From a virus, in the IMG/VR virus record IMGVR_UViG_3300033143_002211, positions 1-35,083 of that record: a stretch of 35,083 nucleotides of DNA, one strand, 5' to 3'. Under the pieces are notes generated by a model. That model saw nothing but the letters and a program-made list of their open reading frames with translations, was not told where the DNA came from and did not search any database. The translations under genes were made by a program, and so were the position numbers. Positions 5,162 to 33,555 of this stretch are shown in pieces (position 1 is the first letter of the stretch; each line of letters starts with the position of its first letter).

Positions 5162-5458
5162 ATGGCTAAAAAATTAAACAAAGCACAACTTGTTGCAGAA
5201 TTAAAAAAATTAGGTATTGAAGTAGATCCTGCAAAAAAGTTGACTAATCCAAAGCTAGAGACCAGAATGACAGTCCTGCTCCTGAGGCTTCAGAAGAGGC
5301 TCCTCCAAAAATTGAGTCTAAGGGTTCAGCAGAGAGAGAAGAACTCCCTGCGCCAGAGACTGAAAAGGATTATCTTCAGAAGTATCAGTATAAAAAGCAA
5401 ATACTCTTTGGTAGTTTGGCTACTAATCCTACTCCCGGGACTAAGAAATACAGGATGA
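5162..5458 (+). CDS. N-terminal fragment of a frameshifted SAP/HeH-like protein
   Basis: The frame opens with MAKKLNKAQLVAELKKLGIEVD and DPAKKLTNPKLE (residues 1-33), the pattern of a helix-extended-helix (SAP-like) motif common at the ends of phage proteins. After about residue 35 the frame turns into an implausible L/R-rich sequence ending at 5458. Meanwhile frame 1 from about 5248 reads a normal acidic linker (SPAPEASEEAPPKIES). The real coding sequence therefore switches frame between about 5248 and 5275, consistent with one base missing (for example near 5268) or another small indel. The portion after the switch should not be trusted. It may be an assembly error, a true mutation or recoding. 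Confidence 0.5.
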   Translation: MAKKLNKAQLVAELKKLGIEVDPAKKLTNPKLETRMTVLLLRLQKRLLQKLSLRVQQREKNSLRQRLKRIIFRSISIKSKYSLVVWLLILLPGLRNTG

Positions 5459-5712
5459 AGCAAAAACTCTTAATGCAACCTAGAGTAAGAATTATTATCC
5501 CAAGAGCGCCAAAAGAGCCAGCAATCGTTAAGCTTTCTGTCAATTTGAATGGTTACAGATTAGATTTTCCAAAACAGGAATATATTGAAGTTCCTGAGCA
5601 AGTTGCAAAGATAATCATGAAATCTCAAAGACAGACAGAAGAAGCTTTAAGCTTTCGCAGACTTGATGCTGGTTCTACGAACAAAGCAGACAAGGAGGCT
5701 TTAAACTTATAG
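5416..5712 (+). CDS. C-terminal part of the frameshifted head-module protein
   Basis: The listed frame begins at a TTG (5416), but the coding signal in this frame continues upstream to about 5248, where no ATG, GTG or TTG exists. The region therefore only makes sense as the continuation of the gene starting at 5162. The combined protein would be about 180 aa: SAP/HeH-like N-terminus, P/A/E-rich linker, then a conserved-looking domain with VRIIIPRAPKEPAIVKLSVNLNGYRLDFPKQEYIEVPEQVAKII (split here: VRIIIPRAPKEP, YRLDFPKQEYIEVPEQ). The C-terminal part is the kind of small structural domain seen next to N4-gp56-type capsid genes; its role is unknown. TAG 5710-5712 overlaps the first base of a GTCGC box. 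Confidence 0.55.
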   Translation: MATNPTPGTKKYRMKQKLLMQPRVRIIIPRAPKEPAIVKLSVNLNGYRLDFPKQEYIEVPEQVAKIIMKSQRQTEEALSFRRLDAGSTNKADKEALNL

Positions 5713-7600: not shown

Positions 7601-8134
7601 ATGAAGATTACAAAAAAGATTGAAAACAATTTATTTTTTCTCGGACTTGTCTGCATAGGTCTTTTATTCTCAACAGCATTATACGTTCAAAGTGTTAGTG
7701 TTCTTGAAACCGATTATTCTTTAACCACAACTTCAACAAATTCAATAACTTTAAGCATTTATAGCCAGGCAGATAATACTACTTCTACTCAAAATGCTAC
7801 TACGACATTTGCTACCGTTGGAGTAGATCTTATTAGTTTGAATATACAATTTACTGGTAGTAGTACAGATTCAACATTGAATTGGAGATATGAATTTTCA
7901 GATGATTTTCAAGAATGGTTTGGTGAAGATTTAATTCAAGCTTCTACTACTTCTATTGCTCATTCTAGTACAACGGTTGCTCATTCATGGAATCCTCAAA
8001 CTACTTCTAAAGTTAGAAAAAGTGTTAGTATAGATCCAATAGCAAGTAGGTTCATGAGAGTTATATTCTTTACTACCAATTCAACAAGCTCTGTATGGTT
8101 TAGAGTCGCACTCAAATCAGAATTAAATAGATAA
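7601..8134 (+). CDS. Exported or membrane-anchored beta-rich protein
   Basis: The product is 177 aa. The N-terminus is a basic MKITKKIENN followed by a hydrophobic segment (FFLGLVCIGLLFSTALYV, about residues 11-29), so it is a signal peptide or single anchor. The rest is rich in S and T (TTTSTNSITLSIY) and beta-like, with WRYEFSDDFQEWFGED around residues 88-103. No family is recognised. An exported protein inside a head-tail module is unexpected; it may act at the host surface or be membrane-associated in the virion. A 61-base gap follows that holds AT-rich sequence without a GTCGC box. Confidence 0.6.
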   Translation: MKITKKIENNLFFLGLVCIGLLFSTALYVQSVSVLETDYSLTTTSTNSITLSIYSQADNTTSTQNATTTFATVGVDLISLNIQFTGSSTDSTLNWRYEFSDDFQEWFGEDLIQASTTSIAHSSTTVAHSWNPQTTSKVRKSVSIDPIASRFMRVIFFTTNSTSSVWFRVALKSELNR

Positions 8135-8195
8135 TTCTGGTTTGTTGTTGTTTTGGGTTTGATAGTTTCGGATTAGTAATTAAATAATTAGAAAA

Positions 8196-8918
8196 ATGAC
8201 AGGAGCAAAGTTAAATACACTTATAAACATCAAGTGTGGAACAAATGACGTAACCTTTACACAGGCAAATAAACTTGTCTTGGTTAATGTTTTTATTAAA
8301 GAGATTTCTTCAATGGTAGTTGAAAAGAATAACGGAATGTTTCTTGTTCCTTCTACTTTTAATTTGGTTGACGATCAGCGCGAATATGGATTACCAGATG
8401 ATTTATTGAATCGTATGCATAAGCTAGAGATAAAGTTTGCCTCAGCTGATTCCCGTTTTCCTTCAACGTATCTAAAAGACTACTATGGCTCTGAAACTGA
8501 AAGTGAAATTGTAAAACGATTTGGCAACGCAGAAGGTGATTTTGCTCATACTATAAGACGAAGGGCAGTCCTTATTTTATCAGGAACTATCGTTGCAGTT
8601 ACAGGAGGAGGAAGATTGTGGTATCACGCTTATCCAGCTGACCTGGCAAACCTCACAGGAAGCACAGATTTGTCCGTAGATCCATCAACTACTACGTTTG
8701 GGTTCCCACGTCAGTTCCATGAGCTTTTGGCTCGTAGAATCGGTATTGAGTATAAAGGATCTAAACCAAAACCATTGAAACTTAATAAGCATGAGCTGAA
8801 CTATGAAAACGACTTAAAGGTTCAATTAGATGCCGTTGCCTCAATCGATAACTCAGGAGAAATTATTGGGAGACTCCCTAGTTCAGAGGATTTAGGTAAT
8901 GATGGTTGGGATTATTAA
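8196..8918 (+). CDS. Head-tail adaptor (connector) protein
   Basis: The product is 240 aa. The layout resembles podovirus adaptor/tail-tubular-A proteins: a helical N-terminus (TQANKLVLVNVFIKEISSMVVEKN), a middle strand region that includes FNLVDDQREYGLPDDLLNRMHKLEI, and a C-terminal long helix after FPRQFHELLARRIGIEYKG, then an ELNYENDLKVQLDAV helix. Such proteins form a ring under the portal and join head to tail. The position after the capsid and decoration genes fits. It has no signal peptide. Confidence is moderate because the fold is recognised by pattern, not by a catalytic motif. Confidence 0.55.
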   Translation: MTGAKLNTLINIKCGTNDVTFTQANKLVLVNVFIKEISSMVVEKNNGMFLVPSTFNLVDDQREYGLPDDLLNRMHKLEIKFASADSRFPSTYLKDYYGSETESEIVKRFGNAEGDFAHTIRRRAVLILSGTIVAVTGGGRLWYHAYPADLANLTGSTDLSVDPSTTTFGFPRQFHELLARRIGIEYKGSKPKPLKLNKHELNYENDLKVQLDAVASIDNSGEIIGRLPSSEDLGNDGWDY

Positions 8919-8920
8919 AT

Positions 8921-9121
8921 ATGGCTAAAGAAGCAAAACAAGCAAATACATTTACAAAGGAAGCTAGGCCAGTAACCGGGAGAAAAAAAAGTCCTCAAGG
9001 ATTTGGACGTGGAGTCTTTGGAACAGCAATTTTTGACCATGAGAGCGGATATGAACAGATTAAAGAGCCACTGGAATCAAACGCACAAACAAAAGAAGCA
9101 TTACCTTCAAAAATAACATGA
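8921..9121 (+). CDS. Small structural-module protein, unknown function
   Basis: The product is 66 aa, basic at the N-terminus (KEAKQANTFTKEARPVTGRKK) with a central GFGRGVFGTAIFDHESGY. I take ATG 8921, two bases after the adaptor stop (TAA-at-ATG), rather than the in-frame TTG at 8906. Its TGA overlaps the fibre ATG (ATGA). The glycine-rich GRGVFGTAIF string and the place between adaptor and fibre recall short tail-joining proteins, but no family is assigned. Confidence 0.45.
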   Translation: MAKEAKQANTFTKEARPVTGRKKSPQGFGRGVFGTAIFDHESGYEQIKEPLESNAQTKEALPSKIT

Positions 9122-10284
9122 ATATTAAAAAAAGAATTACTATTATATTGTCTATTCTGGTTCCAGTCTTTTTGGTATCGTTTATTGTTTTTGCTGCTAA
9201 CTCATTTCCAACAACAGTAAATGATTGGAGCGATGGAGACGTTATTGAATCTGATTGGGCGAATGCTTTAGAATCTAAAATAGGAGCTGATGGTTCTGCT
9301 ACCGCTACATCATTAGATTATATTCTTAAACAATCTACCTCAACTCTTTATACTTTAGATAAAACTAACAGTGGATTTATTGTTGGAGATGGGACTAAGT
9401 GGGTTTTAGAAAGTGGCGCAACTGCTAGAACTTCACTTGGATTAGGAAGTATGGCCACTGAAACAGCAACAGATTATTTAACTATTGCCAACGCGCTAAC
9501 AACATATCTTCAAATAGGGTTTGCTTCAAGCACTTATTATCTTCAAAGAGACGCAACAACCACGATGGATTATTGGGAGACTCAACAAGCTACAAGGGCT
9601 TTTTCAACTACCACTGCTGATTATTGGGGATCTCAAAGAGCAGATACAGCGATAACTTGGAGTGCCAGTGGATTTGCTGTTACTGCCGATGGAATAGGAG
9701 ATACTCAGCTAGCCTTTAATACTGGACAGCATCTAACAACCGCTTCTAATCCTACTTTTAACGATTTAACCCTAACTTATGGACTAACATCGGCCACAGG
9801 GACGTTCTCTGGGGTTCTAACGGCAAATAGTGGGGTTATAAGTGCTACGACTACTGTTTTAGGAGATTTAACGGTTAATGGTCTTTATCAAGGAAAGATT
9901 GCTTCAACTACTCTTGGAAGTGGATTTGGAACAGAAACAATATTTCAATTAACAACAGACACTTCTCCGTCTGGTATTTATGACACAATCACAATAACAG
10001 ATGAGGGCGGTACAACCATATCTTATAATGCAGGTGAAATATATGACCAAGCTAATGAATTAATAGTAGATACAGACGCTCACGCAGGAATAGTGTTAGC
10101 GGATAATGATATAATTTATATTATTTGGAACTCAGGATCTTCTCTTACTACTTCAACGTCTCCGGCTTCGGGAAATCAAATTGGAATCGCAAGTGTCAAC
10201 GTTCAAAATGGTGATATTTATGACATTCATCAAGACAGTTCCTGTTTTAGTAACAAGTGGAATGATTTATTCAGAAGACGTTGA
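9118..10284 (+). CDS. Giant fibre/adhesin, N-terminal part, with signal peptide
   Basis: The first ~370 residues of a fibre-type protein interrupted by a frameshift near 10230. The N-terminus MNIKKRITIILSILVPVFLV plus VFAANS is a canonical Sec signal peptide (cleavage likely after FA or FAA, about residue 30). It is followed by FPTTVNDWSDGDVIESDWANALESKIG, a pattern seen in surface proteins of uncultivated bacteria. Then come T/S-rich fibre repeats (STTTADYWGSQRAD) and a beta-structured region up to NGDIYDIHQD. Only the residues up to about 10230 look genuine; the remainder (CFSNKWNDLFRRR) is out-of-frame. A true signal peptide on a phage fibre is odd: either the virion uses a membrane stage or this protein is exported to the host surface. 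Confidence 0.6.
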   Translation: MNIKKRITIILSILVPVFLVSFIVFAANSFPTTVNDWSDGDVIESDWANALESKIGADGSATATSLDYILKQSTSTLYTLDKTNSGFIVGDGTKWVLESGATARTSLGLGSMATETATDYLTIANALTTYLQIGFASSTYYLQRDATTTMDYWETQQATRAFSTTTADYWGSQRADTAITWSASGFAVTADGIGDTQLAFNTGQHLTTASNPTFNDLTLTYGLTSATGTFSGVLTANSGVISATTTVLGDLTVNGLYQGKIASTTLGSGFGTETIFQLTTDTSPSGIYDTITITDEGGTTISYNAGEIYDQANELIVDTDAHAGIVLADNDIIYIIWNSGSSLTTSTSPASGNQIGIASVNVQNGDIYDIHQDSSCFSNKWNDLFRRR

Positions 10285-13200
10285 TGCTACTTATGCTTTT
10301 GATTTATCATTAAGCGTTGGAGAATATTATCACGATTTACACGAGCAACACACCGTTTCGGCTACAACGTCCCAAACTTCAATTATTTCAATTTGGTGTG
10401 GAGAAACTCTTTATCAAACAAGACCAGATATTATTGCAAATAGTTGGTGTGATACTGGTTCAATGTCATCTACAACAGCAAACAAATATTATGCTTGGAT
10501 GACATTTACCGTTGACGGTCAAATGCATGCCGTTGCTCCAACCGTAGAATATGCAACACAAAATGGTGCTATTGTCGGAGGAGCAACACAATCACTTCCG
10601 TCAGGTCTTGAAAATCATCCAAAATCTACTTGTATTATTTTAAAAGGAGACGACTCTGCTTTACCAACAGCGGGAGGTGATAGATGGATAGATATTAGAC
10701 TTACGTTGCCTTCAAGTCCAGGAGGAACCGTGTCTGACCACGGAAATCTAAGTGGATTAGCAGACGATGACCATCCTCATTATGTTTTAAATACAGGAGA
10801 TGCTATGGGTGGTACTTATACTATTGGAAATATAGTTACAACTTATGGTTTAACTGCGGCAACTTCTACTATAACAAATTTAACAATAAGTACAGGAATT
10901 GTTTTACCTAATGATGTTATTTTAGATGCACACATTGATTGGGGAAATTTAACAGATTTAAATGCAGGTGGTGAAGTGGTTTGGGGAAACGTAGGAGCAG
11001 GAGAACTAGCAGACGACTCAGTTCAAGCTGACGATATAGACACTATAAATTGTGGAACTGGTTGTACTTGGGATACTACTAATGATGAAATAGATATTGA
11101 TATTACCGACCAAGTGGGAACTTTAACTACTGGAGATTTATGTATCAACGATGGCTCTGTTGTTAATTGTACGGTTAATACAATAGCTGAATTAGAAACG
11201 GCTTTAGACGCTGAAAATATTCTAATAGAAGACGAAATAGATGGTTCGAGTGAATTAGCGGCAATAATGGATGATGAAACTGGAGATGGACTTTTAGTAT
11301 TTAATAACAACCCAACAATAACAGATTTAACTATAACTTATGGAATGGCTGCTGCCACCTCTTCAATAACCAACCTAACAGTTGTTACGGGAATAGTGTT
11401 TCCTAATGATGTGATATTAGATGCGATGATAGATTGGGGAAACCTTGCTGATTTAGTAGCTGGAGGTGAGGTAACTTGGAGTAATTTAGCTTCAGGAGAA
11501 TTAACTTCAGAGGTATTACTTTTAGGAACGGATGTAAAGGCTGGGACTTTAACTGATACTAAAATATGTACCTGGGATAATAGTAACAGTCAAATTAGTT
11601 GTGACTATACAGACTTAACGGGTGGTGGCGGGGGATCGGGAGCGTGGGCGACTACAACAGACGGCATAGAAATTATATACGCAGTAGAAACAACAAGCGA
11701 TGTTGTTATAGGTTCGAACGCAACAGCAACAGCAGAGTTCTGGTTTGACGAATCTGCTGGAAATCTAACCATTACCGGAAACTTAATTTCAGCTGATGGA
11801 TTTATTTCTACATCTGACTGGACTACAACCTCAGCTCAATACCTACTTTCTCAATCGGCAGGAGATAATTTAACCTGGGATGGAACTGAGTTTGACATAG
11901 ATGACGTTTTTCTTACATTAACGAATTTTTATTCAACTACTACCGAAGACATAGCAGAAGGAGGAACTAATTTATATTTTACAACAGCGAGGGTTGATTC
12001 TCATTTATCAGGTGGAACGGGGATTGGTTATAGCTCTGGAGCGATAACTTTTGATTGTTCAGAAGTAGAAGGAACGGGCATAAATTGTGGAGGTTCAGAA
12101 GAAATAGAGTTAGACGCCACAGGAGATTGGACAGGAATTTTTGATGGATTAGAAGGAAGCGTTTATTACAACACAACCTCAACACAAATGTCAAACGATG
12201 ACTTCGGAGACTTTAGTTGTGATGGAACTGACCAGGGCTGTTCGTTAGACACAGGCTATCTTACTTTAACGGCTTGGTACTCAACCACAACCGAAGATAT
12301 TGCCGAGGGTGGTACTAATTATTATTATACAACTCAAAGATTCGCTACTGATTTAGCGGCAACGAATACTGATGCTTTAGCACAAGGTTCTACTAATTTA
12401 TATCAAAATTCTGAAATAACTAATTGGATTGACGATGTGACCTTGGGGGCTTCTGGAGCTTTAACTCTACCAGCAGGACAAGACTTTATAATTGGAGCAA
12501 TAACTTGGTCAACGACTGACGATAAAATAGATGGTGAGCAAATTTATGATGACACCGTTGATAACGATTCTATTGATTGGGCAGATATGATTGACTTAAC
12601 CACAGATGGTGCAGTTTCTTGGAGTAATCTGGCGTCAGGAGAATTAACTTCAGAAGTATTGCTTATAGGAACTGATGTGAAAGCAGGTACGCTAACAGAT
12701 ACAAAGTATTGTATCTGGGACACTGCTAATACGCAGATAGTTTGTGATTCTACTCCAGCAGGTTCAGGTGACGTTGAAGCCGTAGGAGATTGCGCTTCTG
12801 GGCTTTGTTTAGACGGAACTTCAGACGGAGGAACTAATATAACTTTTTACAATATAGACTCTAATAAAACTCAGTTGATAGCCTCTGACATAGCTTCGGA
12901 TTTAGTAATTACATTACCGATTGCCTCAATGACGATTAAAGACTGGGAAATAAACTCTGGAACAATACACACAGACAATTATATTGAAAATCCCTTTGGA
13001 GCTTCTATTGATACAGGAGAAATAACTGCAGGAACTATTTTAGAGGTAGATTTAGATGTAGATGAAGAGCCAGCGGATGACGATATTTTAACTTTTGACA
13101 CTACTGGAGATAATTTTTCTTGGCAAACGCCAACGGAATTGGGGTTACTTTATAGTGGTGGAACTTTAACAGACACTCAGATTTGTGTGGCAGACGGAAC

Positions 13201-13561
13201 TTCGGGAGGAGTAGATTGTAATATAGCTGCAACCTATTATGTCCAAGATGGTTGTACTGACTGCTTAAACGATACAGAAATTGATGATATTTATTTGCAC
13301 GATGGAGCTAATGATACAATGACAGGAACTTTAACTGCTGATGGATTTACTTTGGGATCTACTGAAATTTTAACGATAGGTTCTGGAACATTAACTCACG
13401 ATGCAACAGATTTTGTGTTTGATGACACGGTGACAATCACAGGAGATAGTGGAGGTGCAGATGACCCTTCTGTTCCAATGACGCTTTATAATACAGATGA
13501 CACTCCACCTGCGGCTTCAGGATTTCCAATAGGAACAATTTATATTCAATACACACCATAA
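10181..13561 (+). CDS. Giant fibre/adhesin, C-terminal part with repeats
   Basis: This is the continuation of 9118-10284 in another frame. The open frame starts at TTG 10181, but coding becomes sensible from about 10235 (VPVLVTSGMIYSEDVD). The whole protein would be about 1480 aa. It is built from degenerate beta-rich repeats: two copies of FYSTTTEDIAEGGTNLYF-like units (about nt 11928 and 12273), two copies of PNDVILDAxIDWGNL and two of WSNLASGELTSEVLL (11477 and 12620). A Gly/Ser linker (GGGGSGAWATTT) lies around nt 11620. The end (PPAASGFPIGTIYIQYTP) resembles fibre C-termini. Repeats suggest a long shaft or adhesin built by duplication. The frameshift may be an assembly error. Confidence 0.6.
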   Translation: MESQVSTFKMVIFMTFIKTVPVLVTSGMIYSEDVDATYAFDLSLSVGEYYHDLHEQHTVSATTSQTSIISIWCGETLYQTRPDIIANSWCDTGSMSSTTANKYYAWMTFTVDGQMHAVAPTVEYATQNGAIVGGATQSLPSGLENHPKSTCIILKGDDSALPTAGGDRWIDIRLTLPSSPGGTVSDHGNLSGLADDDHPHYVLNTGDAMGGTYTIGNIVTTYGLTAATSTITNLTISTGIVLPNDVILDAHIDWGNLTDLNAGGEVVWGNVGAGELADDSVQADDIDTINCGTGCTWDTTNDEIDIDITDQVGTLTTGDLCINDGSVVNCTVNTIAELETALDAENILIEDEIDGSSELAAIMDDETGDGLLVFNNNPTITDLTITYGMAAATSSITNLTVVTGIVFPNDVILDAMIDWGNLADLVAGGEVTWSNLASGELTSEVLLLGTDVKAGTLTDTKICTWDNSNSQISCDYTDLTGGGGGSGAWATTTDGIEIIYAVETTSDVVIGSNATATAEFWFDESAGNLTITGNLISADGFISTSDWTTTSAQYLLSQSAGDNLTWDGTEFDIDDVFLTLTNFYSTTTEDIAEGGTNLYFTTARVDSHLSGGTGIGYSSGAITFDCSEVEGTGINCGGSEEIELDATGDWTGIFDGLEGSVYYNTTSTQMSNDDFGDFSCDGTDQGCSLDTGYLTLTAWYSTTTEDIAEGGTNYYYTTQRFATDLAATNTDALAQGSTNLYQNSEITNWIDDVTLGASGALTLPAGQDFIIGAITWSTTDDKIDGEQIYDDTVDNDSIDWADMIDLTTDGAVSWSNLASGELTSEVLLIGTDVKAGTLTDTKYCIWDTANTQIVCDSTPAGSGDVEAVGDCASGLCLDGTSDGGTNITFYNIDSNKTQLIASDIASDLVITLPIASMTIKDWEINSGTIHTDNYIENPFGASIDTGEITAGTILEVDLDVDEEPADDDILTFDTTGDNFSWQTPTELGLLYSGGTLTDTQICVADGTSGGVDCNIAATYYVQDGCTDCLNDTEIDDIYLHDGANDTMTGTLTADGFTLGSTEILTIGSGTLTHDATDFVFDDTVTITGDSGGADDPSVPMTLYNTDDTPPAASGFPIGTIYIQYTP
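11477..11578 (+). repeat. Fibre-coding direct repeat, copy A
   Basis: About 100 bases encoding WSNLASGELTSEVLLLGTDV and the following KAGTLTDTK, ending in CTWD. It is paralogous to 12620-12721, with most differences at third codon positions, so the protein module is under selection. Confidence 0.6.
12620..12721 (+). repeat. Fibre-coding direct repeat, copy B
   Basis: The second copy of the module at 11477-11578, encoding WSNLASGELTSEVLLIGTDV and KAGTLTDTK, ending in CIWD. It differs mostly at synonymous positions. Confidence 0.6.
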
Positions 13562-13562
13562 T

Positions 13563-15569
13563 ATGTTTGAAAAACAAATCATTTGGTTAAAAGAAAAATG
13601 GGAAGTATTAAAGTCTTGGTGGAAAAAACAATGGAAAAAGGTGGCGGTAATTGCTACGACTACGGCTTTAGCTGCTCAATTATTACCAGTATCAATTCCA
13701 GCAGAACATATTACTGCTCCAGAGAACAATATTTTTGTAATTGGGATTCAAAATTACCAAACAGAGTTTAAAGAAAATATAATTGATAGTAATTCTTTAC
13801 AATATAAATTAGACAATAAATACATAGCATTTAAACCAGTTGGAATGCGTTGGAACACAAGTCAGGAAATAAAAAAAGAAGCAGTAAGCTCTATTAAAAC
13901 AGACAATAAAACTGAATACATAGATGTGTTTGGAAAAGGTATAGATATTGTTATGGAAACCGAAAGTAGAACATGGAGTAAGATTGTTAAAATAGATTCT
14001 TTAAAAGATTTAGGAGAAATACCATATAATGCAGAATACTTAGAAATTATTTTTGAATTAGATACTAATTTTATTATAGATGGTTGGAATAAAAAAGATG
14101 AATTAGAGGTGATTGATACTGTTAGGGTTGGAGATTATTCTTACTTAGAACCAGCAAGGGCTTGGGATAGTTTTCAACCGAATGAGGAAGAAGATTTTAA
14201 TAACGTTCAAATTAAAAGTTTTTTAAAAGAAGGAATATATATAAAACAAATTCCAATTAATTGGTTAAAGTCAGCTCAATATCCAATTTATAGTGACGCA
14301 GATGTTGTATTTGGAACAGCTTATGAATATAACAGCACGGGAGCAGTTCTTAATGTTAAAATGGAAGAATTAGATACAAATAAATTTGTTGTCTGTAATA
14401 TAGACGACACAGACGATGATGCTGGAGATTGTAGAGTAGCTACCGTAGTTGGAACAACAATGACTTGGGGAGCTTCAAGTGAATTTGAGGCAGACGCTAT
14501 GGAATCATCACAGTATGTTTCTATGGGTGTTGCAAAGTTAGGAACAGATAAATTTGCGGTTGCTTTTAACGATGGAGATGACGGAGGCGTTGGTAGTCAA
14601 AGAGCAGTTACAGTATCTACCAGAACTATTGGAACTTGGGGAACTAAAGATTTATTTGAAAACCCGGGTGATGCTGAAAATGTAACAGCAGTAGGAATAG
14701 CAACTGATAAATTAGTGGTTTGCTATAACGATGAGGGCAATGGTGATACTGGAAAATGTAATGTAAGCACTGTTTCTGGAACAAGCATAACTACAGGAAG
14801 TTCTAATGATATGTCGTCAACTGATTACTATCCACTTGAGTCTCGGGTCTGTAAATTAGATACTGATAAATTTATTTATTGTTGGGATTCTTCTGATACG
14901 GCAGATGGACATTGTGCTGCAGCCACGGTAGCAACCAGAACAATAACGTGGGGAACAGTAGTAACATTTGAAGAGAACCCAATGAGGTATTTAGATGTTA
15001 CTTGTTTAGATACTGATAAATTTTTAATATCTTGGAATGACGATACGGAATCATCAGTAGACGTTATGGCTGGGACAGTTTCTACAAGAACAATAACACT
15101 TGGTTCGGAATATGAACTTAGTTCAGATGGTGCTTGGGGAACAGCTGGGGCTGTATTGTCTGGAACTGAAGTATTAATAGCCTTTGTGGATGTTGGGGAT
15201 ACCAATCATGGAAAAACTACAAAAGTCACGATTGATTGGGCAGACAAATCAATAACATTTGGGGAGGAGATTGAATTTAATAACACCGATACTGGTGGTT
15301 ATGCCGACCAAGGATTAGACATTAAAACAATAAATTCTGCTGAACCACAAAAAGTAGCTATTTGTTATCAAGATAACACTCAGGCTGATAATGGATATTG
15401 TATTATAGGAGATATGGAGGCAGCCGCCCCAGAAGGAACAAACATACAAATAAACATAGGAGATGTTTGGAAAGACGTAGATGCTATGCAAATAAATATA
15501 GGAGATTCTTGGAAAGCGGTCGAAGGAGCTTGGGTTAATATAGGAGATACTTGGAAAATAATATATTAA
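13563..15569 (+). CDS. Signal-anchored propeller-like adhesin with C-terminal NIGD repeats
   Basis: The product is 668 aa. The N-terminus has amphipathic W/K-rich residues 1-26 and then a hydrophobic VAVIATTTALAAQLLPVSIPA (about 27-47), a signal-anchor. Residues ~50-245 form a beta-rich domain ending with WLKSAQYPIYSDADVVFG. Residues ~255-610 carry about six repeats with the pattern LDTDKFVVC...D..GDC..A TV..TTxTWG, the spacing of beta-propeller blades. The last ~45 residues contain three copies of INIGDxWKxV (INIGDVWKDVDAM, INIGDSWKAVEG, VNIGDTWKIIY), a pattern I associate with tail and surface proteins of AT-rich phages. The likely role is binding at the host surface; the exported form is unusual for a phage. 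Confidence 0.55.
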   Translation: MFEKQIIWLKEKWEVLKSWWKKQWKKVAVIATTTALAAQLLPVSIPAEHITAPENNIFVIGIQNYQTEFKENIIDSNSLQYKLDNKYIAFKPVGMRWNTSQEIKKEAVSSIKTDNKTEYIDVFGKGIDIVMETESRTWSKIVKIDSLKDLGEIPYNAEYLEIIFELDTNFIIDGWNKKDELEVIDTVRVGDYSYLEPARAWDSFQPNEEEDFNNVQIKSFLKEGIYIKQIPINWLKSAQYPIYSDADVVFGTAYEYNSTGAVLNVKMEELDTNKFVVCNIDDTDDDAGDCRVATVVGTTMTWGASSEFEADAMESSQYVSMGVAKLGTDKFAVAFNDGDDGGVGSQRAVTVSTRTIGTWGTKDLFENPGDAENVTAVGIATDKLVVCYNDEGNGDTGKCNVSTVSGTSITTGSSNDMSSTDYYPLESRVCKLDTDKFIYCWDSSDTADGHCAAATVATRTITWGTVVTFEENPMRYLDVTCLDTDKFLISWNDDTESSVDVMAGTVSTRTITLGSEYELSSDGAWGTAGAVLSGTEVLIAFVDVGDTNHGKTTKVTIDWADKSITFGEEIEFNNTDTGGYADQGLDIKTINSAEPQKVAICYQDNTQADNGYCIIGDMEAAAPEGTNIQINIGDVWKDVDAMQINIGDSWKAVEGAWVNIGDTWKIIY

Positions 15570-15582
15570 ATAATAAAAATTT

Positions 15583-15822
15583 ATGAAAAAACTAATAATC
15601 GTTCTAATAATTATCTTAATACTTTCTGTGGGAGCAAATCTTTATCATTTTGGTTGGAAAGGAATTATAAATAAAATTGCACAAATAAAAGCAGAAGCTT
15701 TTAAAAATGGACAATTAAATACAATAAATATTTTATTTCAGCAATTACAAGACACAGGTCAAGTTAGAATACAAACAGAGGGTGGGGTAATAATTTTAGT
15801 GCCACTAAAAAATGAACAATAA
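15583..15822 (+). CDS. Small single-pass membrane protein
   Basis: The product is 79 aa: a hydrophobic N-terminus MKKLIIVLIIILILSVGANLYHFGW (about residues 3-22, single membrane segment or signal) followed by a helical, charged segment (INKIAQIKAEAFKNGQLNTINI) and a short beta tail. The family is not recognised. It resembles small accessory lysis or spanin-type proteins only in architecture (one N-terminal membrane segment plus helix), which is weak evidence. The start is ATG 15583, with AT-rich DNA upstream and no Shine-Dalgarno. The next gene overlaps its end by 11 bases, so the two are co-translated. Confidence 0.5.
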   Translation: MKKLIIVLIIILILSVGANLYHFGWKGIINKIAQIKAEAFKNGQLNTINILFQQLQDTGQVRIQTEGGVIILVPLKNEQ

Positions 15823-16027
15823 AACAAAAGTAATTATAGGAACAGCAATAGCTTCTTTATTAGGAGGCAGTGCATATATAGGAAGCGAGATTGGGAGGCC
15901 AGAATGTGATTATGTAATTCTTCACGAAAGAAAAGAAATTTGCATAACAGAAGAACTTAAACAAATTATTGAGTCCGGCCTAAAAGCAAATGATGGATTT
16001 GGCGGGGTAAAATTTGGTGATAAATAA
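15812..16027 (+). CDS. Small exported/membrane protein
   Basis: The product is 71 aa with a short N-terminal hydrophobic stretch (VIIGTAIASLLGGSAYIGSEIG, about residues 6-27). A region with two Cys follows (GRPECDYVILHERKEICITEEL, C at about residues 32 and 43) and then FGGVKFGDK. The spacing of the cysteines could allow a disulphide outside the membrane. No family is recognised. It overlaps the upstream small membrane protein by 11 bases and ends just before the propeller-type tail protein; a paired function with 15583-15822 is possible. It lacks a Shine-Dalgarno. Confidence 0.45.
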   Translation: MNNKTKVIIGTAIASLLGGSAYIGSEIGRPECDYVILHERKEICITEELKQIIESGLKANDGFGGVKFGDK

Positions 16028-16030
16028 ATT

Positions 16031-17449
16031 ATGGCAATAATATTACAAAACATAAACGGATTGGCTGACAGCAAATGGTCTGGGATAGCAGGTAGCGTTG
16101 CAGAATGTGTGGGTTTAGATTTACATTCAACTCCCGGATTAACAAAGGTCAGACAGAAATTAGCATTAGAAAGTGGAGCAACAGTTGATGGATTAGTCAA
16201 AATAGCAGTTGCAGTCTCAACAGGAGAAAGCTTTTGGTTTTCAGCAGATACTGGGAAAATATGGAGAAGATCCTCAACGGGAACTTGGCTCTTAGTTCAC
16301 ACGACAACGCCTGGCGCTGGAGAAGCTAAATGTCTTGGTGCTGTTGAATATAATGGTTATCTTTATTGGGCTACTCAAAGCAAGCTTCATAGAATCGCAA
16401 TGGCTACCGCTCATGCAACACTAGCGAACTGGACTACTAACGCAGTAGAAGATTGGGCTACTTTTGGAGTAACAGATATTAGTTTTCATCCAATGGCCAT
16501 TCAAGACTTATCTTTATTTATAGGAGACGGAAATCAAGTTGCAGAAGTAAATGAAGATGGAGACTTTGATAATAACGTTTTGGACATTAAAACACCGTTA
16601 CGAATAAAAGCAATGATTCCTTACGACATTGATTTGTTGATAGGAACCTACGTTGCAGATACAGTCAATAGAACAGAAATAATCAGATGGGACACCGTAT
16701 CTCCTTCTTGGAATACATCAGATCCTATTGAAGAAGTAGGAATTAATGCCTTCATTCGTGATGATAATTATGTTTATGTTAATGCCGGAAGAGCTGGTAG
16801 AATCTATTTTTACAACGGAGAACAGCTTGTTCCTTACAAAAGAATACCTGGTGATTATTCAAATACTAAATATGGAACGGTACATCCAGGATCAACAGCT
16901 AACTTTAAAGGAGTCCCAATTTTTGGATTTTCTAATGGTGCTGGTAATCCTGCAAAGCAAGGAGTTTATAGCTTTGGATCATACTCAAGAGATTATACAA
17001 AAGTAATTGATTTGTCGTGGGTAAATTCACAAGACAAAGTGTCAACACAGGAAACAGGAGCTATTTTAGTTTTAGATTTTGACTTAATAGTGGCTTGGAA
17101 AGATACCGCGAATTACGGAGTAGATAAGCTTGATTATTCTAACAAATACACTTCAGCATATTTCGAAACAATGATGTTAGCTCAAGACAAACGAGATATA
17201 GAAAAAACCCTTGCAGAAGTAGTAGCTTATTATCAATCATTACCGGCAAGTACAGGTTTTACAATTTCATATAAAATAAATCATGGCAGTTATATTGCAA
17301 TGACAGGTGTTATTCATAGCAACGAAAGTGCGGTTAAAGCAGAGTTAAGTGTAGAAAAAATAGGTTCATTGCAAGTTAAAGTCGTTTTTACTGTTAATAG
17401 TAATGACGCTCCAACATTAGAAGCGCTTGGGGTGACATATCAAGAATAA
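16031..17449 (+). CDS. Propeller-type tail/stopper protein
   Basis: The product is 472 aa, without a signal peptide. The sequence is a series of blade-like beta repeats (GESFWFSADTGKIWRR, GYLYWATQSKLHRIA, DLSLFIGDGNQVAEV, IDLLIGTYVADTV, YVYVNAGRAGRIYFYNG), consistent with a beta-propeller in about residues 60-330. It ends with a beta domain (KAELSVEKIGSLQVKVVFTVNS). Podoviruses such as P22 place a propeller-fold plug (gp10-like) between adaptor and needle; the fold, size and position in the tail module suit a comparable closure or hub protein, but I cannot show homology from sequence alone. It follows two small membrane proteins and overlaps the next ATG by one base (TAATG). Confidence 0.5.
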   Translation: MAIILQNINGLADSKWSGIAGSVAECVGLDLHSTPGLTKVRQKLALESGATVDGLVKIAVAVSTGESFWFSADTGKIWRRSSTGTWLLVHTTTPGAGEAKCLGAVEYNGYLYWATQSKLHRIAMATAHATLANWTTNAVEDWATFGVTDISFHPMAIQDLSLFIGDGNQVAEVNEDGDFDNNVLDIKTPLRIKAMIPYDIDLLIGTYVADTVNRTEIIRWDTVSPSWNTSDPIEEVGINAFIRDDNYVYVNAGRAGRIYFYNGEQLVPYKRIPGDYSNTKYGTVHPGSTANFKGVPIFGFSNGAGNPAKQGVYSFGSYSRDYTKVIDLSWVNSQDKVSTQETGAILVLDFDLIVAWKDTANYGVDKLDYSNKYTSAYFETMMLAQDKRDIEKTLAEVVAYYQSLPASTGFTISYKINHGSYIAMTGVIHSNESAVKAELSVEKIGSLQVKVVFTVNSNDAPTLEALGVTYQE

Positions 17450-19395
17450 TGCCAATTATAATTTCACAACCAATTCCAGAAATTAAAGAACGAATGAGTT
17501 TCTCTGGGTTAAGACAATCTTTCCAGACGATAGGGCTTAAAGCAACAAAGCGTTCTTTTCAATCTGCTAATTATGTGAGTGGTTCAGCTGGTTGGAAATT
17601 AACAGCAGAAGGAGATTTTGAAGGAAATTCAGGAACTTTTAGAGGAGATACTGGAGGAATTATTCAAACTGCTTCTTCAGGACAAAGGATTGTTTTGACA
17701 GATACTGACGACTCATTGACTTTATATGATTCTAGTGAAAATCAACTTTTTAAACTTTTTGTAGATGCTAGCATAATAGCTGGTATCAGTACTTTTGCTG
17801 GTTCAGCTGCCACTGCGGTCAATATAGCAGTGGCTGGAACTGGAGTAGGACTCGCTTCTGAAATATCTAATGCTGCTAATGCTGATTCTGCTGGATATTT
17901 TAGAACAAATGGATTAGGATATTCTTTGTATGTTTTAGTAGCTTCAAATGCTAGTAGGACTAAACCTACTCTTTATCTTAACGCTACGGCTGGTCAAGGC
18001 GCTCATATTGGACTTTATCCTATCGCTACTGAGCCACAGACTCCATCAGAAGGAGAAATCTATGCTAACGAGAACGGAAATCTTTACTATCACGATGGAT
18101 TGTCATTTAAATCTCTAAATCGTCCTACTACAATCGCTACTTCCAAAGAAGCAGGAGAAGATTTGTTAGAAGGAGAGGCTGTTTATCTGTCCACAGGAGG
18201 GTTGACAGCTACTAAAGAAGCCGAGAACACCACAGGGACAACAGACGCGACTATCTGGGGAGTGAGATGGGGAGGACAAACTTTTCTGTTCGCAGACGAA
18301 AAGACCATTACAAAAGTTAATCTAATGCTCAAGAAGGTTGGAACACCCGTGGGGAACATAACATTAGAAATATTTGCTACTTCTGCAGGAGAACCCACTG
18401 GCGCAGCTTTAGCTTCGAAAGTTCTTGTTGCCGATGACGTTCTGACCACTTCTTATGCTCTGGAGGAATTTGTCTTAGATTCACCTCTTGACATTGATGC
18501 TGACACGGTTTATGCGATTACCTGGAAAGTTCCTGATACAAACGAAGCGAATAGAGTTGTAGCTCAGTTTGCCAATTCTGGTAACCCCTATGCCGATGGA
18601 ACATTCCTCTACTCAACAGACTCAGGAAGTAATTGGACGATTGAAGCCGATTATGATTTTAGATTTGATATATATGGAAAACCTAGAGCAAATAGAGTTT
18701 ACAAAACAGACGCTTCGTTTGATGACGAAAGGACTACTAAGTTTTTGGGCTTTGTCAACGAGAATACTTCGGTTGGAGATAACGTTGATGTCAATACGGT
18801 AGGAGAACAGATAGGTTTTTCTGGACTAACTGTTGGAAGCATATATTATTTGTCAGATACAGCAGGAGAAATATCTGATGTGGCAGGAACAAGATCGGTC
18901 AAGGTGGGTATTGCTGTTTCTGCTACTGAACTTTCATTATATTCACGAAGCACAGCCAATAAAAAAACTAAAGTGAGTAGTGGTTTACGTAATTCTAACG
19001 ATGCAGAGCAAAACACAACTGAAACATCTTACGTAAAATTAAAAGAAATCTTATTAAACGAAGATATTGATGTTTTAAAAATAGGTTTTACGTCAAAAAT
19101 GGGTAGTGGTGGAACAAGCGGTAAGGCAAGAATATATAAAAATGGAGTTGCTTTAGGAACTGAACAGTCTATTGTTGATAGTGGTGACCAAACTCATACT
19201 CAAGATTTTACTGAATTTTCATCTGGTGATTTAATTCAAATATATGCTCACGTAAATACTGGTGGATGGACTATCTATGTTTGGAATTTTAGATTTTATT
19301 ATACTGATTATATAACTGCTTTTGGAGGAAACAATCTAGCGGCAGATATAGAATTAGAAACAGTCGTAAAGTCAACCACTAATCAAGATCCATAA
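17449..19395 (+). CDS. Tail fibre with choice-of-anchor-R-like domain
   Basis: The product is 648 aa. The N-terminus (MPIIISQPIPEIKERMSF, residues 1-18) likely anchors to the tail; residues ~40-70 hold the fibre motif SAGWKLTAEGDFEGNSGTF and RGDTGG found in many tail fibres. Residues ~115-190 are a low-complexity beta shaft with A- and G-rich turns. Residues ~255-410 resemble a choice-of-anchor-R-type jelly-roll (VGTPVGNITLEIFATSAGEP, DADTVYAITWKV, YSTDSGSNWTIEADYDFRFD). The C-terminal domain (about 520-640) is a beta sandwich with STDGW-like and IYVWNFRFYY aromatic residues. Such modules bind carbohydrates, so this is a probable receptor-binding fibre. There is no signal peptide, in contrast to the giant fibre. 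Confidence 0.65.
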   Translation: MPIIISQPIPEIKERMSFSGLRQSFQTIGLKATKRSFQSANYVSGSAGWKLTAEGDFEGNSGTFRGDTGGIIQTASSGQRIVLTDTDDSLTLYDSSENQLFKLFVDASIIAGISTFAGSAATAVNIAVAGTGVGLASEISNAANADSAGYFRTNGLGYSLYVLVASNASRTKPTLYLNATAGQGAHIGLYPIATEPQTPSEGEIYANENGNLYYHDGLSFKSLNRPTTIATSKEAGEDLLEGEAVYLSTGGLTATKEAENTTGTTDATIWGVRWGGQTFLFADEKTITKVNLMLKKVGTPVGNITLEIFATSAGEPTGAALASKVLVADDVLTTSYALEEFVLDSPLDIDADTVYAITWKVPDTNEANRVVAQFANSGNPYADGTFLYSTDSGSNWTIEADYDFRFDIYGKPRANRVYKTDASFDDERTTKFLGFVNENTSVGDNVDVNTVGEQIGFSGLTVGSIYYLSDTAGEISDVAGTRSVKVGIAVSATELSLYSRSTANKKTKVSSGLRNSNDAEQNTTETSYVKLKEILLNEDIDVLKIGFTSKMGSGGTSGKARIYKNGVALGTEQSIVDSGDQTHTQDFTEFSSGDLIQIYAHVNTGGWTIYVWNFRFYYTDYITAFGGNNLAADIELETVVKSTTNQDP

Positions 19396-29120: not shown

Positions 29121-29137
29121 AATTATTGATTACTTTT

Positions 29138-29410
29138 ATGGATTCAAAGGAATTACAGGAGTGGCTAAAAATGATATTATCTGGGTTAGTCTCAAATCCT
29201 GATGAAATAGAGATAGAACACGTGTCAGATGAAATGGGTATTAAATATACGGTCAGGGTTGCGAAAGACGATCGTGGAAAAGTTATCGGAAAGGGAGGCG
29301 CAATAGCAAATGCATTACGTACCATTTTACGATCTGCCGGGTATCGTGGAGACATCCGCGCGTCATTGATATTTGATATGCCAGATCATATTTATCCTCC
29401 AAGAAATTAA
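29138..29410 (+). CDS. KH-domain RNA-binding protein (KhpA-like)
   Basis: The product is 90 aa from ATG 29138 (the frame is open from a TTG at 29126, rejected). The core GIKYTVRVAKDDRGKVIGKGGAIANALRTIL matches the single KH domain of KhpA/YlqC-type bacterial proteins: an N-terminal helix with NPDEIEIEH, the VIGKGG GXXG loop (GKGG, about residues 51-54) and the following helix. Known KhpA proteins bind RNA, often with KhpB, and affect mRNA stability and translation; they are common in Firmicutes and, as I recall, in Patescibacteria. Finding one in a late/lysis region is uncommon. It may bind phage RNAs such as the GTCGC leaders, but this is speculation. Start at 29138 is also supported by the GTCGC box. 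Confidence 0.75.
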   Translation: MDSKELQEWLKMILSGLVSNPDEIEIEHVSDEMGIKYTVRVAKDDRGKVIGKGGAIANALRTILRSAGYRGDIRASLIFDMPDHIYPPRN

Positions 29411-33045: not shown

Positions 33046-33555
33046 ATGAAAAACAAACTTTTATCAATATTTATATTAGAGCTAATGTTAATTCCTTTCT
33101 TTGTAGTTGCTCCCGTTTTAGAAAATCCTTATTTATTAAAGGTAATAAAGTATGATTCAGAATATCCAGAGAGGTGGGCAGTAGAAATTGGTTTGGTAAA
33201 AGAAGATGATCTGGCCAGTAGAATAGTGTTTTGTGAAAGCTCTTGGGAAGACTGGGAATGTAATCGTCAGTATGGATGTATTGCTGGAATGGGATTGTTT
33301 GGCATTATTAGTGGAACGTGGAATAAAACAATAGTTGAAATGTCTAAAAATGATATTTATATGCCTGAGCGTTGCTGGAATTTTGTTTATCTACCCATGA
33401 GCGAAAAAAGAACAGAAGTAATTTTTGACGGAGAATGTAATTTAAGAGTAGGGTTGTATCTTTTAGAAAAAGATGGAACAAAACACTGGGGAATAGAAGA
33501 TAGTTCGTGGGGATCCCGGGATTGTTGGAATAAGTATTATGTTAATAATTTATGA
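33046..33555 (+). CDS. Exported transglycosylase-like protein
   Basis: The product is 169 aa. An N-terminal signal peptide or anchor (MKNKLLSIFILELMLIPFFVV, cleavage about residue 24-28) precedes a domain with ASRIVFCESSWEDWECN and GCIAGMGLFGIISGTWNK. This is the ES (catalytic Glu-Ser) plus GLFQI pattern of SLT-type lytic transglycosylases and goose-type lysozymes, with GLFGI in place of GLFQI. A C-terminal NLRVGLYLLEKDGTKHWGIEDSSWG matches the family's second half. Cysteines (C64, C74, C79 by eye) would suit an extracellular protein. It would cut glycan strands outside the membrane. Its location among replication genes, away from the endolysin, is unusual. Confidence 0.6.
   Translation: MKNKLLSIFILELMLIPFFVVAPVLENPYLLKVIKYDSEYPERWAVEIGLVKEDDLASRIVFCESSWEDWECNRQYGCIAGMGLFGIISGTWNKTIVEMSKNDIYMPERCWNFVYLPMSEKRTEVIFDGECNLRVGLYLLEKDGTKHWGIEDSSWGSRDCWNKYYVNNL

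Follow-up and report, generated by a model that had tools for sequence, protein, structure and literature searches.

Fibres of tailed phages fold and assemble in the cytoplasm. What, then, would fibre- and adhesin-like proteins with export signals do when they are encoded within the virion genes of such a phage? The question is raised by IMG/VR record IMGVR_UViG_3300033143_002211, the whole of which (35,083 bases, the entire virus record) was analysed and is referred to here as the window. The original prediction for this DNA was that five genes between positions 7601 and 16027 start with a signal peptide or a hydrophobic anchor, and that export of their products points either to display at the surface of an episymbiotic host or to a virion stage at the membrane. 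A survey of DGR target proteins reported that those of phages lack signal peptides, unlike bacterial ones, which underlines how unusual an exported set would be.

Methods

N-termini were scored as signal-bearing when they had a positively charged n-region and a 12-residue h-region with a mean Kyte-Doolittle value of at least 1.7. The rule recovered six of six known signal peptides and flagged one of 349 core virion proteins of the relatives. The host search covered 384 Paceibacteria genomes (a class-level draw) and 380 Patescibacteria genomes, class and phylum being set by taking L069 (Zambryskibacteria) as centre.

Genome organisation of the phage

The late region of the window is podovirus-type, and the window is probably a podovirus-type phage of Patescibacteria. 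The major capsid protein (MCP, gene 4117) matched phrog_1357 (E=7e-64). The landmark used for the region is an SU10-like head-tail adaptor gene (8196-8918, + strand), which lacks a signal, is kept in relatives and matched PF24175 with an E value (3.8e-4) short of the Pfam cut-off. Gene 8906, within 7601-16027, is likewise signal-less. The tail hub-like propeller protein (16031-17449, + strand), also without a signal, was used as the tree marker, and hub searches returned 36 relatives. A probable virion-borne fibre without a signal (17449-19395, + strand; PF09327, E=0.0055, below cut-off) comes next, and its N-terminal stretch matches L076, L077, L078, L081, L082 and L085. Further downstream lie genes for a 2033-aa protein (21201), an amidase (28058) and a KhpA-type KH-domain protein (29126-29410, + strand; PF13083, E=6e-16), the last serving as clade marker. 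All genes from 7601 to 16027 are on a single strand, with intergenic gaps of -13 to 61 bases, one frame break aside.

Two further features of the window were observed. Near position 5261 (5162-5712), 46 bp are absent relative to L002, a second assembly of this phage, and a 198-aa gene is broken into two frames; the gap is an assembly error or a variant. At 33046-33555, a signal-bearing, Cys-rich protein is encoded that looks lysozyme/transglycosylase-like by eye, gave no Pfam match, and has a homologue in the L103 record; its product is possibly an exported lysis enzyme.

Signal-bearing genes between adaptor and hub

The products of genes 7601, 9118, 13563, 15583 and 15812 all begin with basic residues followed by an uncharged hydrophobic stretch, and this composition, together with the signal rule and its single false positive, bears out the claim of five signal peptides or anchors. 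At the rate of 13/284 seen outside the clade described below, the chance that at least three of the four genes of at least 120 aa in this interval would be flagged is P ~4e-4. As in most of their homologues, 7601, 9118 and 13563 have the basic n-region, hydrophobic h-region and small residues at -3/-1 of type I signals, with possible SPase-I-like sites. No Cys was found near the cut site of any of the three, so that none resembles a lipoprotein of the Cor/Llp type.

Gene 7601 (7601-8134, + strand), just before the adaptor gene, encodes a signal peptide and a beta-rich body of 150 aa, for which the AlphaFold model was of too low quality for use. Gene 9118 (9118-10284, + strand) encodes a signal peptide and the first part of a giant repeat fibre, the remainder of which (10181-13561, + strand) lies in a different frame and contains 21 Cys with 9 close pairs. 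The protein is thus fibre-like with a signal, as predicted, but its reading frame is split; like the 46-bp gap, the break may be an assembly error. Against PHROGs, 9118 gave a weak match to a tail fiber family (phrog_2282, E=0.005).

Gene 13563 (13563-15569, + strand) encodes a signal peptide whose n-region is long and basic, repeats of a beta-propeller-like type that contain paired Cys, and a weakly phage-like C-terminus with GxWK repeats. The propeller-type repeats have homologues in Patescibacteria proteins that range from 502 to 3610 aa, and the reading of this protein as a propeller-like adhesin finds support in the homology to cellular surface proteins, but not in the AlphaFold model (pLDDT 39). 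A LamG domain (PF13385) did not reach the cut-off in 13563; it did so in its slot counterparts in L067 and L082, and also in L085 and L057.

The two remaining genes, 15583 (15583-15822, + strand; 79 aa) and 15812 (15812-16027, + strand; 71 aa), encode single-anchor membrane proteins. The former is weakly Rz-spanin-like, its best match (phrog_214, E=0.057) being too weak to class it as a spanin. The latter has a conserved C-terminus and homologues directly upstream of the hub gene in L067 (L067:3873, 71%) and L082 (L082:2234, 50%). Grouping this pair with the fibres was unjustified, since small transmembrane proteins directly upstream of the hub occur family-wide; both are treated here as belonging to that ordinary type, and 15812 as a conserved small family.

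In the isolate-phage collection, no matches to 9118, 13563 or 15583 were found, viral scans with 13563 and with an alignment of the 9118 N-terminus found no relatives, and PDB sequence searches were empty.

Conservation and spread of the signal-bearing genes

The nearest relative, L003/L067 (MCP 70%), appears complete because its contig ends overlap by ~120 bases. Signal-bearing homologues of 7601 (L003:13170-13703), 9118 and 15812 are in place in this phage, together with an extra signal protein (L003:13708), and a signal-bearing LamG protein occupies the slot of 13563. In L082, a 9118-like fibre, a LamG protein with signal peptide (SP-LamG) and the 15812 homologue follow in matching order, and a different signal-bearing protein of 221 aa stands at the place of 7601. 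Both phages share with the window the order signal protein, adaptor, fibre with signal peptide (SP-fibre), SP-LamG, small signal-bearing protein and hub. The signal peptide of 9118 and the motif NSFPTTVNxWSDGDxIESDWANALExKIG are common to L067:896 (77%) and L082, and the mature start is conserved immediately behind the predicted cut. In comparisons with L003 and L082, the signals are conserved in layout and stay hydrophobic, yet drift faster than the mature parts (identity 64 vs 80%, 40 vs 63% for 7601, and 54 vs 80%), in which dN is lower than dS.

In the hub tree, a clade of 11 rows (support 99/100) includes all six phages initially scored as bearing signal peptides; L077 was added later. 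The KH gene was confined to nine records of this clade (L003, L077, L078, L079, L081, L082, L084, L085 and L107): it was not found in the 18 records from outside the clade nor, within it, in L080 and L083, both of which are short. SP-fibres, SP-LamG proteins or both were further identified in L077, L079, L085, L083/L084, L208 and L209/L210. Altogether, the search in related phages and host genomes that the original prediction had called for found signal-bearing fibre or LamG-lectin genes within the virion modules of some ten IMG/VR relatives and of one Paceibacteria-binned phage contig (L152/L153), which has an adaptor-like gene, an SP-fibre, a signal-bearing protein, a small transmembrane protein and the hub. 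The LamG domains of the SP-LamG proteins were confirmed by Pfam, the SP-fibre of L083 is a tail fibre by PHROGs (phrog_9942, E=1.6e-34), and the C-terminus of the L079 SP-fibre is baseplate protein-like (E=2e-9). SP-fibres also occur outside the clade, in L088 and L108, and whole-contig counts (18/245 in the clade vs 13/284 outside, P=0.2) refuted the idea that such genes are exclusive to the KH clade.

Several other arrangements were observed in these records. The SP-fibre gene of L088 spans the record ends (36359-36982 and 62 onwards); an identical stretch of 31 residues is encoded at either end, which suggests a circular or complete genome. In L083 (7677-8507) and also in L084, a Xer-type tyrosine recombinase, recognised by eye, lies beside the SP-fibre in the virion module and might invert or integrate DNA. 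A distant MCP relative (34%) encodes an SP-LamG and several other signal-bearing proteins in the module (L057:12188-18993), and two Patescibacteria-binned phage contigs have signal-bearing, opposite-strand genes at a matching place downstream of the hub (L148:4425-4967 and L149:12560-13075). Glycosyltransferase, methyltransferase and PIG-L-like cassettes occupy the adaptor-hub slot in L107 (403-5454), L110 (4762-8963) and L086 (1919-4368), suggesting that the slot is surface-modifying.

Outside the clade, the place between adaptor and hub is taken in L100, L102 and L103 by LamG fibres that lack a signal and are homologous to the SP-LamG proteins; the original function may thus have been one within the virion. 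This bears on the possibility that Sec exports the fibres, that disulfides form as they fold and that, once the cell has lysed, they dock on the hub as extra receptor-binding fibres. The position of the genes between adaptor and hub, tightly packed with both and in some cases overlapping, would suit such docking, as would the resemblance of two of the signal-less slot homologues to virion structural proteins and the GxWK repeats that end both 13563 and the slot proteins of L102 and L103. However, no docking domain was seen, the mature 9118 fibre begins within a few residues of the predicted cut, the phage has another fibre that lacks a signal (17449), and we know of no tailed phage that assembles Sec-exported fibres. 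We regard docking on virions as unlikely.

The conserved setting also bears on whether the genes are mere passengers, that is, surface-protein genes of cellular origin that were acquired from hosts and are maintained as morons, whether selfish or neutral. The repeats of 13563 and 9118 do resemble Patescibacteria chromosomal proteins; among these, the surface or secreted proteins L133, L134 and L135 have homologous propeller repeats, and L134 has a signal peptide as well. These proteins are chromosomal and do not adjoin virion genes in the stretches seen, whereas 13563 is phage-borne. A passenger origin is nevertheless very improbable: three phages share the layout, dN is lower than dS, the genes are closely packed among the virion genes, and L083 has tail-fibre ancestry.

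Probable host of the phage

Relatives of the hub were found in 5/384 Paceibacteria and 9/380 Patescibacteria genomes, two of them inside contigs of 819 kb and 1.10 Mb, that is, as prophages in Patescibacteria chromosomes. The prophage module of the 1.10-Mb contig also contains a KH gene (L199:13868-14146). At the level of phylum, these prophage relatives support episymbiotic Patescibacteria as hosts, as originally proposed; because the hub matches are only 23-39% identical to that of the window, we infer rather than prove the host phylum for the window's own clade. A spacer-type DNA search with the first 20 kb against the 380 Patescibacteria genomes gave low-complexity or AT-rich chance matches only.

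Cysteine content and probable export

The putatively exported set (7601, 9118/10181 and 13563) contains 34 Cys in 2476 aa, as against 13 in 5814 aa of virion proteins (P=2e-9), and 17449, 19658 and 21201 have none in ~3190 aa. Pairing of Cys is non-random both in the giant fibre (10181), where 0 of 20,000 random placements gave as many pairs, and in 13563 (P=0.007). The enrichment is strong in the window phage, moderate in the clade (P=4e-4) and slight when all lineages are pooled. This pattern fits disulfides formed outside the cytoplasm.

Taken with the conserved yet faster-drifting signals, the cleavage-like sites and the recurrence in related phages, the paired Cys support export, and we consider it highly probable that the fibre/adhesin set is exported through Sec. 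To this extent the earlier reading of export stands for the fibre/adhesin set; no evidence was found for a virion stage at the membrane, and that idea was dropped. The same features bear on another explanation, in which the proteins remain in the virion and their hydrophobic N-termini serve at entry as helices that insert into the membrane or dock on the virion. The location in the virion operon and the lack of a strict cleavage site in some members, such as 15812, would agree with an entry helix, but nearly all large members combine a basic n-region and a short h-region with A-x-A-like sites, similar signals occur on chromosomal proteins (L134), and the paired Cys and the fast drift also speak against such a helix, which we consider improbable.

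Proposed function of the set outside the cell

It is plausible that the exported set acts at the host surface, and we tentatively favour masking of receptors or of the surface over extracellular decoration of virions or altered adhesion. The 7601 protein, the giant fibre and 13563 would be produced late, from the row of genes that also encodes the adaptor, the hub and the virion fibre. Sec would carry them across the membrane and the signals would be cut off, perhaps with the exception of 13563. Outside, they would bind carbohydrates or proteins in the envelope of the producing cell and its neighbours, masking receptors to which the virion fibre (17449) would otherwise attach, which would limit superinfection and the loss of progeny on debris. 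The genes, their signals and conservation, the slot and the spread through the family were observed; we infer export, cleavage, disulfides and masking alike, and masking is the weakest step of this explanation. Against it, known exclusion proteins are small lipoproteins, unlike giant fibres, and no receptor-binding domain common to the exported set and 17449 was found; late co-expression also suits exclusion less well than early expression would. The signal-less LamG fibres in the slot of relatives outside the clade, the SP-fibres of L088 and L108, the genome-wide share of signal-like ORFs, which is no higher in the clade than outside, and the slight Cys enrichment in the pooled lineages also count against this explanation.

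A precedent for masking is provided by phage T5, whose purified receptor-binding protein blocks infection when added from outside and whose exclusion protein Llp is encoded adjacent to it (PMC9586334). The superinfection-exclusion lipoproteins Llp/Cor resemble the proposed set in being exported, encoded beside a receptor-binding protein and able to block adsorption (PMC9586334), but are small lipoproteins acting on an outer-membrane receptor, whereas the window encodes large fibres without a lipobox. PblA and PblB of Streptococcus mitis phage SM1 are phage tail proteins that double as adhesins on the bacterial surface; their release requires the phage holin and lysin, whereas the window genes carry Sec signals (PMC7600539).

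The original prediction had instead given altered adhesion of an episymbiotic host as an example of surface display. In this alternative, exported adhesins would change the attachment of the infected episymbiont to its own host or to other cells, and the phage would thereby meet new cells more readily. LamG and propeller bodies are a typical feature of surface proteins in Patescibacteria, giant proteins that carry adhesion domains and are targeted to the surface have been noted in Absconditicoccaceae (PMC13059738), and phage lectins have been proposed to raise adhesion (PMC12911398). Nevertheless, the genes lie in a late operon and no recognised integrase was found in the window, so that the cell would be near lysis; the set is absent from the prophage relatives, where conversion would pay most; and no cell-wall anchor was seen. 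Altered adhesion is, in our estimate, also unlikely.

More generally, some tailed phages of episymbiotic Patescibacteria might export their tail-fibre-type proteins, with disulfides, through Sec and use them outside the cell, where they would either attach to virions once lysis has occurred or cover the infected cell, with receptor binding split between cytoplasmic and exported fibre systems; this broader proposal is speculative.

Conclusions

Lectin genes of Patescibacteria phages, and a role for them in adhesion, have already been proposed: PMC12911398, citing Wu et al. 2024, describes Concanavalin A-like lectin 'AMGs' of groundwater Patescibacteriota phages, which are LamG/ConA-like, as are the SP-LamG proteins described here, and proposed to act at the cell surface. 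In that text they are listed as auxiliary genes with no mention of a signal peptide, whereas the SP-LamG proteins have Sec signals, lie in the virion module and have signal-less slot homologues. The signal-bearing, tail-fibre and virion-slot nature of such lectin and fibre genes appears to be new; a search of the open-licence literature found no earlier description of tail fibres with Sec signals from phages of Patescibacteria, which is weak evidence of absence.

A recurring, conserved set of fibres and lectins with export signals within a virion operon contradicts the expectation that fibres are cytoplasmic, and suggests that the lectins listed as 'auxiliary genes' in Patescibacteria phages may derive from a fibre slot. 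It also gives a testable starting point for asking how phages cope with the surface of ultrasmall cells that live on other cells and, if the exported set acts outside, it would represent an unusual phage route to reshaping the cell surface.
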